NCBI RefSeq assembly: GCF_009712035.1
Contig: NZ_VILB01000013.1
Coordinates: forward strand, 247,555-311,554
Length of the DNA: 64,000 bases
DNA from: Anabaena sp. UHCC 0187
Lineage (GTDB): Bacteria; Cyanobacteriota; Cyanobacteriia; Cyanobacteriales; Nostocaceae
Direction of reading: 5' to 3'
Notes under the pieces: generated by a model
What the model was told of the DNA's origin: nothing
The model's input: the letters and a program-made list of their open reading frames with translations, nothing else
Databases searched by the model: none
Shown: positions 12,607 through 15,635 of the stretch, piece by piece
Layout: each line of letters starts with the position of its first letter
Position numbering within the stretch: position 1 is the first letter of the stretch
Made by a program: the position numbers and the translations under genes

Positions 12607-12922
12607 TATGGTAGTTAAAATATTTATTGCGAGATAGTTCTTCCTTATCGATTTCATGATAACAAATTTAAAATCAAATGTCAACCCTCTTGATCTCCTT
12701 TATTGGCTTTTTTTGTAAGTGTCACAATAATTGATTTGAATAATTATTATATTCAGGAGTTAAACAAGATTTTAGGTAGTTTATGTCAAGAAATTTAGGG
12801 TTAAAAGAATTTGAACGAATATATTTTTAATCTTGGCATCTTACTGATGCTTGTTTATTTTTTCTCAGGTGTTCTAAATCAATATGCTAAAATAAAAAAT
12901 ACGCTTTAATCAGGTGATTAAG

Positions 12923-13240
12923 ATGACACAATCTACACCCCAAAGAGTTGTCCGTCGTGGTCGAGTATTTCCCGAAATTCAGTGGACTGATGAACAAAAA
13001 GCTCAAGATAGAGCTAGAAGACAGGCATTTTCTGATCATTGTTGGGTAATTTTTGAGCGGTTAAAACCAGAAATATTAGATAAATATTCTGGTTGGTATA
13101 TTGCTATTGAACCTGATAGTGGGGATTATTTTATTGATCAAGATCAAGAAGTAGCCAGTAAAATGGCTAGAGAAAAGTATCCTCATGTCATTCATCATAT
13201 TTATGGCATTAATGAAACGGGAGTTAGTGGCAGAATATGA
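12923..13240 (+). CDS. Small conserved hypothetical protein, partner of a retropepsin-like gene
   Basis: A 105-residue soluble protein, start at ATG 12923 (an in-frame GTG nine bases upstream is possible). It is basic at the N-terminus (VVRRGRVFPEIQW), has a charged helical part, and a motif WYIAIEPDSGDYFIDQDQE near residues 57-75. I do not recognise a named family with certainty. Its stop overlaps the ATG of the next reading frame (ATGA at 13237-13240), and in cyanobacteria such small genes often precede an aspartic-protease-like gene. A regulatory or antitoxin-like role is only a guess. It opens the accessory stretch after dnaK. Confidence 0.65.
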   Translation: MTQSTPQRVVRRGRVFPEIQWTDEQKAQDRARRQAFSDHCWVIFERLKPEILDKYSGWYIAIEPDSGDYFIDQDQEVASKMAREKYPHVIHHIYGINETGVSGRI

Positions 13241-13344
13241 TTGAGGGTAAATTTGGAGAAAATGGACAAGTTTATTTTGAAATTGATTTAATTGGTGGGG
13301 ATAATTTCAGTTTTCCTGTAGAAACAATGTTAAACCCCGTCTAG
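13237..13344 (+). pseudogene. Truncated retropepsin-like (clan AA) aspartic protease, N-terminal stub
   Basis: A 35-codon frame begins MIEGKFGENGQVYFEIDL and stops at TAG 13342-13344. The stub resembles the first strand of clan AA retropepsin-like proteins, whose next element would be the catalytic D-T-G. Here the sequence reads ETMLNPV and stops before any Asp-Thr-Gly, and no continuation was found after the stop. The start overlaps the preceding gene by 4 bases, showing that the pair was once translationally coupled. It is most likely a broken gene. Confidence 0.5.
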
Positions 13345-13549
13345 GTTGAAACCTATAGTTTTTTCTATGGCAAAACTCAAGTTTTCAAGATGGATGCGGT
13401 ATATTTACTTTATTTTACAAAAATTTACATTTCCATTTGTATAAAATTTACAAAAATAGTATAAAATCATATACTAAATGCAAAATATATTGCTTGTTTC
13501 AAATTTCTCAATAAAAAATATTTTATATTTTGGATAAAACTGAATTTGC

Positions 13550-14170
13550 ATGAATCAAATTACATTACTTAATCAACAAGAAATTGAACAAAAAATTTAT
13601 AAATTCCAGTCAGCTTTAAACGATGAAACCTTGACCGATGAAGTTATAGTACAAAAATATATAATACATGGTACTCCTTACGTATTTAAAAATAATGAAG
13701 ATGGATATTTTGACTTAAAATCAAATATTGCTAATTTCTTTGATGAAAAACCAGAAAATATTCACATGGTTGGATCAGGTAAATTAGGATTTAGTATCTC
13801 TCCAAATATAAAACAGAATAAATTATGGAGGCCGTTTTCAGAAGAATCAGATATAGATATTGTGATTGTATCCGAAAAGGGGTTTGTAAAATTTTGGGAA
13901 GAATTATATAATTTTAACATTTCTCTAACTAGCAGAAATAACAAAGAAGAAGAGAAATATCAAAATTTCTTAAAATACTTTTTTAAAGGTTGGCTTAGAC
14001 CGGATCTATTTCCATTTAGATATTATAATAAAGATAGATGGCATGATTTTTTTAGAGCTATTTCATATAAATATACTGATCATAAAATAAGTGCTGCTGT
14101 CTATTATAATTATAACTTTTTTGAAAAATATCATATCCAAAACATAAAAAACTTAAGGAGTGTTAAATGA
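13550..14170 (+). CDS. Nucleotidyltransferase-like protein, first gene of a two-gene module
   Basis: A 206-residue protein that I cannot assign to a named family. Residues 74-80 read VGSGKLG and residues 100-107 read SDIDIVIV, which together look like the GS...DxD catalytic signature of the polymerase-beta nucleotidyltransferase fold (candidate metal ligands Asp101 and Asp103). The spacing between them (about 25 residues) is longer than usual, and a third acidic residue is not obvious. The rest is rich in aromatic, Lys and Asn residues (KYFFKGWLRPDLFPFRYYNKD). The gene is markedly AT-rich. It overlaps the DUF262 gene by 4 bases (ATGA), so the two are coupled. A defence role is inferred from the partner. 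Confidence 0.65.
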   Translation: MNQITLLNQQEIEQKIYKFQSALNDETLTDEVIVQKYIIHGTPYVFKNNEDGYFDLKSNIANFFDEKPENIHMVGSGKLGFSISPNIKQNKLWRPFSEESDIDIVIVSEKGFVKFWEELYNFNISLTSRNNKEEEKYQNFLKYFFKGWLRPDLFPFRYYNKDRWHDFFRAISYKYTDHKISAAVYYNYNFFEKYHIQNIKNLRSVK

Positions 14171-15195
14171 GTAAAAATGGCATAGCTACAAATAAAAAAA
14201 TTATAGAACTATTTAATGACATGAAAAATGGAATTTTAATATTAGCTCCATCTTTTCAAAGAAATTTAGTATGGAATGATTCTCACAAAGAAAAATTTAT
14301 AGACACGATTTTAGTTAAATTACCTTTTCCTGAAATTTATTTAGCTGATGGTGATATTGATCTTGAAACCCAGACATCCAAAACACTTGTAGTAGATGGA
14401 CAACAGAGACTCAGTACTATTTATGAATATATAACTGCATCACCTAAGTTTAAAATAAAAAAAATACCTAAGTTTTTAGACTTAAGTTCATCAGAAAAAA
14501 CAAGTTTCTTTGATTATATAGTTGTTGTAAGAGCTTTAGGAAGAATACCTGAAGATGAAATTCGTGAGATATTCAAGAGAATAAACTCTGTACAATACGC
14601 CTTAAATGCTATAGAAATAAATAATTCTTTATACGAAGGTGAATTTATTACAACTGCTAAAACCATAGCAGAAAATAATCTTCTTTTTGAGAAATTAGAA
14701 ACCTTTAGCACTGGTGAATTCTCACGAATGAAAGATTTAGAATACATTTTAATTATTATGTCAACTGTAGAAGAAGGAGGTTATTTTGCCAGTGATAAAG
14801 AAGTTAAAGAATATGTAACTAAATATGATAATGACTATCCTAATAATAAAATAATGATTCAAAATTTTAATGAAGTTTGTGAGTTAATAATTAATTGTAA
14901 TGTACCTTCAGATAGCTTATGGATTAGAAAATCTAGTTTGTTCAGTTTAATAGTTGAATTAATAAAATTTAAAATTAAATATGAAATTTTACCAAATAAA
15001 GAAATTCTAAAAACTAAACTAAATTATTATAGTGAGCTAATTTTTGATAGTAGAAAGGAAGAAAATAATGCTAATGATTATGCACAGTATTATTACTATA
15101 CACATCAAAGTACTGCTAGTAGAAAAGCTCGTATTATTCGTGGAAAAGTTATAAATAATTTTTTAGAAGAAATTTTAAAAGAACAGAGCAGTTGA
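14167..15195 (+). CDS. DUF262 domain protein (GmrS/ParB-like), second gene of the module
   Basis: A 342-residue DUF262 protein. The domain motifs are PSFQRNLVWND (28-38), the hydrophobic F-I-D-T-I-L segment, VVDGQQRLSTIYEYI (75-89) and IFKRINS (135-141). In GmrSD-type restriction systems this N-terminal domain binds and hydrolyses nucleotide and is fused or paired with a DUF1524 HNH nuclease domain. No HNH motif is seen here; the C-terminal half is of unknown fold. The gene is AT-rich like its upstream neighbour and starts inside that gene's stop. Fragments of other genes lie on both sides, so the pair sits in a variable site. Confidence 0.85.
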   Translation: MSKNGIATNKKIIELFNDMKNGILILAPSFQRNLVWNDSHKEKFIDTILVKLPFPEIYLADGDIDLETQTSKTLVVDGQQRLSTIYEYITASPKFKIKKIPKFLDLSSSEKTSFFDYIVVVRALGRIPEDEIREIFKRINSVQYALNAIEINNSLYEGEFITTAKTIAENNLLFEKLETFSTGEFSRMKDLEYILIIMSTVEEGGYFASDKEVKEYVTKYDNDYPNNKIMIQNFNEVCELIINCNVPSDSLWIRKSSLFSLIVELIKFKIKYEILPNKEILKTKLNYYSELIFDSRKEENNANDYAQYYYYTHQSTASRKARIIRGKVINNFLEEILKEQSS

Positions 15196-15196
15196 T

Positions 15197-15442
15197 ATAG
15201 AGGGTGCGTCAAACTATAGCCGTCAGGAGTTAGAAGCAATGTTTGGATTAACAGAATGGCAGCAAACTCGATTTTATCAAGAAGTAAAAGAAGAGACGGA
15301 GTTAAAAACGGAGTTAGAAACTAAGTTAAAAACGATTCCTAGACTGTTAAGTGAGGGACTAACTGTAGAACAAATTGCTCGTATATTTGAGTTAGATATC
15401 GAAGTGGTAAAACAAGCAATTAAAAAGCAAAGTAGTAAATAG
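15197..15442 (+). pseudogene. C-terminal remnant of an Rpn-family (PD-(D/E)XK) nuclease/transposase-like gene
   Basis: The reading frame is open from the end of the DUF262 gene and contains N-Y-S-R-Q-E-L-E-A-M-F-G-L, a charged coiled stretch (EVKEETELKTELETKLK) and a helix-turn-helix-like tail LSEGLTVEQIARIFELD. This is the standard C-terminal end of cyanobacterial Rpn-type proteins, where NYSRxELEAMFGL and the E-x-I-A-x-x-L tail are common. The nuclease core is missing; the fragment begins where the DUF262 gene ends. The ATG at 15239 could give a 67-residue product, but it would be only the tail. Confidence 0.65.
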
Positions 15443-15493
15443 ACATCTGATGAATAAATGTAGGGGCAATTAACCTGTTTCTGGATCTAAATA

Positions 15494-15564
15494 GCGGGCA
15501 AGACTTGTACTGAGCTTGTCGATAGCGCAGCGTGGCGTTAGCCATAGTATGCCCGCACCACAAG
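15494..15564. repeat. Palindromic dispersed repeat carrying a 46-bp insertion
   Basis: The left half GCGGGCAAGA (15494-15503) and the right half TGCCCGCACCACAAG (15550-15564) match the uninterrupted repeats at 40996-41023 and 44376-44400. Between them lies a 46-bp segment (15504-15549) that itself looks like a cyanobacterial small repeat (GCGCAGCGTGGCGTTAGCC). Confidence 0.7.
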
Positions 15565-15635
15565 AGTATTTCTCCAGATTAATAACTGGGTAAATACTTT
15601 TTTGCTAGATTGTGCAATTTGTTGTTTGCATATTC

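Follow-up and report, generated by a model that had tools for sequence, protein, structure and literature searches.

In the type IV enzymes BrxU and SspE, as described in passages of PMC10952713, the DUF262 domain binds or hydrolyses nucleoside triphosphates (NTPs) and forms the NTPase half of the protein, not the nuclease, and in SspE it activates the nuclease once a DNA mark has been sensed. The same passages describe Menshen as combining a DUF262 gene and a predicted OLD nuclease and list HEPN as the other domain of PD-T4-2, and a part of PMC3710099 notes operons of the HEPN_MAE_28990 family with ParB and DNA methylase genes (Anantharaman et al., 2013). In this study, we describe a pair of overlapping genes, A and B, in a 64,000-nucleotide stretch of the genome of Anabaena sp. 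UHCC 0187 (contig NZ_VILB01000013.1; the whole stretch is hereafter the window), of which A encodes a nucleotidyltransferase (NTase)-like protein and B a DUF262 protein. Among the readings weighed here, we lean towards that of a mobile two-gene anti-phage (anti-foreign-DNA) module, in which B would be the sensor or switch and A the NTase effector.

The only Pfam match of B at E <= 1 is GmrSD_N (PF03235; E 3.1e-22 and 80.1 bits, the cut-off being 33.2), and thus no DUF1524 domain is detected in it; A and two small flanking open reading frames (ORFs) likewise give no DUF1524 match at that threshold. The original prediction had named the second gene as a DUF262 protein with QR and DGQQR motifs and without the DUF1524 HNH nuclease, and both parts stand, the two motifs being invariant in the alignment (Table 1). 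In the case of PADLOC, the best model of B is NsnA (PDLC03877, 1.3e-30, residues 10-338), which we take to belong to Menshen, with PD-T4-2_A at 1.8e-22 and a Type II restriction endonuclease (REase) model at 2.1e-11. When the structure of B was predicted alone and then compared with known structures, BrxU and SspE were among the best matches; the modeled fold is that of a ParB/Srx-like NTPase of the DUF262 family, for which NTPase activity is predicted. DUF262 is not mentioned in the consulted parts of a 2025 survey of ParB-CTPase folds (PMC12704722).

Compared with the described systems, A-B lies outside GmrSD, PD-T4-2, Menshen, and CBASS (cyclic oligonucleotide-based anti-phage signaling system), from each of which it departs in a tested feature. 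The type IV enzymes GmrSD, BrxU, and SspE share the DUF262 fold and the DGQQR pocket with B, whereas A-B has a separate NTase partner and no DUF1524 HNH nuclease. PD-T4-2 is also an anti-phage system with a DUF262 protein, but its other domain is HEPN while the partner here is an NTase, and B is closer to NsnA; Pfam scans of the window A and of 67 A proteins gave no HEPN match. Menshen (NsnABC), to which the best PADLOC model of B leads, is a three-gene system and differs in its OLD-type partner: no PADLOC model (PADLOC-DB 2.0, 2023) is reached at E <= 1 by the window A or by either flanking ORF, and the Nsn models match none of the 67 A proteins at E <= 0.01. CBASS was considered and rejected, since the window A matches no cyclase model and its partner is DUF262; against the 67 A proteins, two cyclase models gave one weak match each (0.0043 and 0.0074). 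The MNT-HEPN toxin-antitoxin systems also have a small polymerase-beta-type NTase in a two-gene operon, but there the partner is HEPN, not DUF262. The HEPN_MAE_28990 operons resemble A-B in combining a DUF262/ParB gene, a small effector-type gene, and a C5-methyltransferase (C5-MTase) of the subfamily linked to A-B, and differ in that the effector is HEPN and the gene order is another. In the DUF262/GmrSD literature searched, largely listings and passages (including PMC12409362, PMC12839542, PMC12707154, PMC3710099, PMC10952713, and PMC11980606, with the 2025 Menshen domain paper, gkaf357, outside this coverage), no description of an NTase-DUF262 pair was found, and A-B probably represents a form of DUF262-based immunity that has yet to be described.

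Homologues of A were searched for without using B, in 388 genomes of the order Cyanobacteriales (that of the window included) and in a set of one genome per species. A is present in 20 of the 388 and in none of the 12 other genomes of the same genus among them. The one-genome-per-species scan gave 70 A loci, and in 68 of them A is directly followed by B on the same strand, in agreement with the earlier expectation that A homologues regularly stand beside DUF262 genes. Of the two misses, one is cut by a contig end (L064) and the other has no B (L089); the latter (L089:5938-6591) is an A-like NTase gene in a Myxococcota bin, with no DUF262 neighbor. The 68 include an in-frame A-B fusion (L060), a broken B (L035), and a B that runs off its contig (L090), and with starts chosen mechanically, 62 of 66 gaps between the genes measure from -29 to +11 bases. 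On viral contigs, the A alignment found 15 homologues, 14 of them with B downstream, and single-protein A queries gave no match; INPHARED phage records showed no A homologue with the window A (E <= 0.01) or a Pantoea A (E <= 1e-4). Three plasmids have an A-like gene, which is paired with B in two, including a 6.2-kb Cronobacter plasmid, and adjoins a DUF4365 gene instead in the third. At two loci (L109:4486-5737 and L004:5298-6552), an A-like NTase gene directly follows a short transglycosylase gene (PF00912, 6e-32, in L109; by annotation in L004), with a DUF4365 gene after it in L004; this arrangement is possibly a different NTase module.

Searching the 388 genomes with B gave 45 matches in 41 genomes. 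All 19 strong ones (at least 165 bits) adjoin A, a broken A, or an A remnant, and no A was found at the 11 of the 26 weaker ones looked at (L129-L139). The identity matrices of A and B (63 loci and the window) correlate at 0.94, a value reached in none of 2000 permutations. In seven of eight pairs, the ratio of nonsynonymous to synonymous substitution rates (dN/dS) lies between 0.16 and 0.31 in A and between 0.09 and 0.20 in B, the eighth pair being saturated. On a B tree of 81 rows, 65 of them with a phylum and nine phylum-level groups in all, the phylum labels need 20 changes, against a minimum of 8 and a shuffled mean of 35.5, which is suggestive of transfer, not proof of it. The two genes are linked in several phyla, diverge together, and are naturally fused in one genome, which rules out a chance neighborhood: A-B is a real unit that travels through many bacteria, prophages, and plasmids.

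From its sequence, A looks like a divergent polymerase-beta-type NTase in which the usual third acid is not evident. It holds the stretches GSGKLGFS (G75, S76) and ESDIDIVIV (D101, D103), and GS followed by DxD on the next strand (DSSP strand 102-107) is found in all 67 A proteins. NTP_transf_2, the sole Pfam match of A at E <= 1, falls below cut-off (E 0.053) and is detected at E <= 0.1 in 27 of the 67; a structural comparison of A gave a low Z, and the NTase-like character foreseen for the first protein is supported by the motifs and, tentatively, by this low-Z comparison. The active site had been expected to show two or three aspartates, of which two are invariant; for the third, the alignment has no conserved acid on strand 180-185, and the later acids D152 and E192 occur in 55 and 56 of the 67 proteins. 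PHROGs places A in an unnamed family (phrog_32008, 6.8e-11), sequence searches of the PDB with A and B yielded nothing useful, and Foldseek with A found nothing at E <= 0.001 in the PDB and a viral library. The top viral structure match (BFVD A0A7D3V5N9, E 4.8e-3, 19% identity) is an uncharacterized 1147-residue Fadolivirus protein, part of which matches A.

The third acid bears on the roles of the two proteins. Were A a catalytically dead NTase that binds nucleotide and regulates B, the latter would be a DNA-acting effector; this would suit the third acid not being evident, as well as the putative nuclease function given to PtuX, a short DUF262 protein, in a part of PMC11980606. We regard it as quite improbable, as every one of the 67 A proteins, down to ~20% identity, keeps D101 and D103, and as the nuclease of BrxU and SspE is not the DUF262 domain, which is their NTPase half (PMC10952713, in the passages cited above).

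The roles of sensor and effector are suggested by the exchange of partners at DUF262 genes. All eight full-length DUF262 genes of the Anabaena genome have an adjacent partner, namely three HEPN genes (PF18737), one HEPN-like gene and three P-loop ATPase genes (both by motif, assigned by eye), and A; three further PF03235 matches, two half-length and one below cut-off, stand outside this count. One of the eight belongs to an operon of DUF262, HEPN_MAE_28990, and C5-MTase genes (G000:C33:162191-165100, L208), the last of the subfamily linked to A-B, which is likely a second DUF262 defence module. The six others (G000 C4:239378, C5:390393, C53:80736, C55:73227, C56:94460, and C21:1747) each adjoin a HEPN, HEPN-like, or P-loop ATPase gene, and the pair at C4:239378 falls just beyond the window edge, ~21 kb upstream of A-B. 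Among the 11 loci looked at that have a weaker DUF262 match, eight have HEPN-like partners (Pfam, run on four of these, gave weak support for two and none for two), two have RelA_SpoT partners, and one is a fragment of an A-B-type B (L129). In the RelA_SpoT cases, L136:1486-3553 (PF04607, 1e-10) and L135 (by similarity), the DUF262 gene comes before the RelA_SpoT-domain gene, in what is possibly an alarmone-type module. The partner families are known as growth-arresting or nucleic-acid-attacking effectors. As the partners vary (NTase, HEPN, RelA/SpoT, ATPase), the DUF262 gene is the constant part, and the eight partners within one genome, together with the two RelA/SpoT relatives, thus lead us to see in B a shared NTP-driven sensor and in A an interchangeable effector.

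The same variation weighs on the view of A-B as a stabilizing toxin-antitoxin pair, with A as toxin NTase and B as antidote (or the reverse), kept by host addiction. The small size and overlap of the two genes, and their presence on a small plasmid and in a prophage, are compatible with such a pair, and so is the breakage or loss of A with B intact in five cases (L008, L074, L078, L124, and L101) against one converse (L035), as expected if A is costly. This excess is suggestive but not significant, several of these cases are in draft or binned genomes, where some breaks may be sequencing errors, and L035 keeps an intact A with a broken B. Moreover, B carries invariant NTPase motifs and, to our knowledge, DUF262 is not a known antitoxin fold. 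Because DUF262 genes pair with several unrelated partners while DUF262 itself stays, a toxin-antitoxin function, which we consider unlikely, is less supported than sensor plus effector.

Some copies of the pair are accompanied by a C5-MTase. These enzymes make up 9 of the 129 nearest neighbors of the pair and 0 of 114 distant genes at the same loci; since the PADLOC scan of the distant genes listed 25 of 94 families, the genes were counted again using a profile built on these MTases, and the outcome did not change (p 0.003). Clustering puts a C5-MTase beside the pair in 12 of the 88 loci (in L063, with one gene in between), a trait that takes 6 changes on the B tree. At five of the 12 it adjoins a SmaI- or NaeI-type REase (by Pfam in L075 and L083; by similarity in L063, L076, and L080), and L102 seems to adjoin a DruE-like gene (L102:10058-12538, assigned by eye). 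At the last six, which come from two distant A-B clades, the MTases all belong to a single subfamily (42-78% identity) and show two gene orders: convergent to the pair in L030, L031, and L034, and directly upstream in L079, L087, and L106 (gaps of 33, 8, and -6 bases), with Vsr adjoining L087. An REase at these six may have escaped the listing, which covers 25 of 63 families.

Such a coupling could mean that A-B is the restriction half of a system akin to restriction-modification (R-M), in which the C5-MTase marks self and A-B acts on unmarked DNA, an MTase elsewhere in the genome serving where none is linked. The recurrence of one subfamily beside A-B in distant clades argues for this, together with the match of B to the Type II REase model and the MTase in operon with HEPN_MAE_28990 and DUF262 in the Anabaena genome, an arrangement printed in 2013 (PMC3710099, in part). 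We find it rather doubtful, given that most loci (all but the 12 of 88) have no C5-MTase beside the pair. As proof of R-M, the link is weakened because the five loci above have a conventional REase of their own and a DruE-like gene is the apparent neighbor in L102. The A-B-linked MTase family is present in 119 of the 388 genomes, and among its best 30 copies none adjoins A, nor a HEPN or DUF262 gene of the MAE_28990-operon kind, which speaks against a strict link. A dependence of A-B on a core cyanobacterial MTase is not supported either, as only 6 of the 20 A-bearing genomes have the enzyme (E <= 1e-60); these six belong to a family in which 56 of 71 listed genomes have it.

The sites occupied by the pair are of a defence type. 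Both flanks are present in three sister genomes (L165, L166, and L167), where A-B gives way to the 5' portion of an Rpn-like gene, which L165 has split into frames, together with a large gene that is of one family in all three; the left junction lies at 13265-13274 depending on the genome and the right one at 15214, so the variability foreseen for this site is real. Pfam, applied to the L166 genes alone, identifies the large gene there as Type ISP R-M (PF18135, 1e-94), and in PADLOC it comes out as a Type IIG enzyme-methyltransferase (1.2e-289). L169 and L168 match in the right flank alone; the former has the same two genes, and the large gene is absent from the latter. Among 5426 E. coli genomes, one (strain 1500; NZ_CP040269, 3286-4880) has the pair at the search sensitivity used, inside a P2-like prophage between the replication endonuclease and portal genes (P2 gpA-gpQ). 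Parts of two sources describe this site as a hotspot whose 18,150 loci show 1,650 gene arrangements and which holds old and tin in P2 (PMC9122126), and place there four systems of a functional screen (PMC9519451). Five other strains, sampled from 1639 portal-gene records, carry at this site an ATPase pair, a retron, a DUF7380 gene and, in the remaining two (L204 and L207), a C5-MTase with a hypothetical 330-residue protein and a ParB-N protein, these last two having no Pfam match at E <= 0.05 in L204. The restriction-type locus, the P2 hotspot, and the C5-MTase coupling point to defence; the original prediction had offered defence or toxin-antitoxin, and position speaks for the former.

The features of the locus are collected in Table 1. 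Coordinates and base composition agree with the two AT-rich genes and ATGA overlap first described, the two 1-kb bins that hold most of A-B (13001-15000) having 25-28% GC against ~40% in most neighboring bins. The ORF at the right edge had been taken for an Rpn tail, and it aligns with positions 223-272 of 273 of TIGR01784 (30 bits, under the cut-off of 52.1); sister genomes have a longer Rpn-like gene there, of 260 residues in L166 (PF11103, DUF2887, E 2.6e-74). Two stretches of ~75 bp (13330-13405 and 15492-15567) flank A-B, each with one full-length copy in the window and many matches across genomes of the same genus. Positions 12914-13344, a 108-residue gene with the adjoining 35-residue ORF, match at several sites in such genomes.

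Table 1. Features of the A-B locus, in window coordinates.
Feature	Position	Strand
Gene A: NTase-like protein, 206 residues, proposed effector	13550..14170	+
Gene B: DUF262 / GmrSD_N (ParB/Srx-like NTPase fold), 342 residues, proposed sensor/switch	14167..15195	+
ATGA overlap, A stop / B start	14167..14170	+
GS motif of A (G75-S76), invariant in 67/67 aligned proteins including window	13772..13777	+
DID motif of A; D101 and D103 each invariant in 67/67	13850..13858	+
QR motif of B (Q31-R32), invariant in 66/66 aligned proteins including window	14257..14262	+
DGQQR nucleotide-pocket motif of B (D77-R81), invariant in 66/66	14395..14409	+
FKRIN motif of B: F136, R138, N140 invariant in 66/66	14572..14586	+
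Stretch swapped for Type ISP R-M gene and 5' part of Rpn-like gene in L165, L166, L167	13275..15213	
Rpn-like/DUF2887 gene tail, right edge, outside module	15239..15442	+
35-residue ORF, putative retropepsin stub of the original prediction, left edge, outside module	13237..13344	+

Our preferred reading, that of a mobile anti-phage module, starts from what the data show (strict linkage, co-divergence, invariant motifs, the fold of B, defence-type locations, and the swapping of DUF262 partners) and would proceed as follows. B would bind or hydrolyse NTP and read some state of the DNA, most likely its modification state; once triggered, by analogy with BrxU and SspE, it would release or activate A. 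Acting as an effector rather than an inhibitor, A would transfer a nucleotide to a molecule that the host or the phage cannot do without, for which tRNA or protein, taken over from other NTase toxins, are the obvious candidates. Infection would then stop, probably by arrest of the cell, without a nuclease of the module's own.

All together, these results describe a widespread two-gene module, present in nine phylum-level groups of the B tree as well as on plasmids and viral contigs, whose NTase gene has no PADLOC model. They also suggest a rule for 'orphan' DUF262 genes, namely that the effector should be sought in the adjacent gene, so that what DUF262 senses becomes testable by comparing modules that have a common sensor and different killers. 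As a tentative and still somewhat doubtful generalization, DUF262 may serve widely as a sensor of the modification state of DNA, with interchangeable killers (NTase, HEPN, RelA/SpoT, ATPase/OLD, or HNH) attached to it, and MTase-linked A-B would then be R-M with a nucleotide-transfer arm. If this is true, the restriction arm of the MTase-linked pairs would consist of nucleotide transfer onto RNA or protein, not of DNA cleavage.
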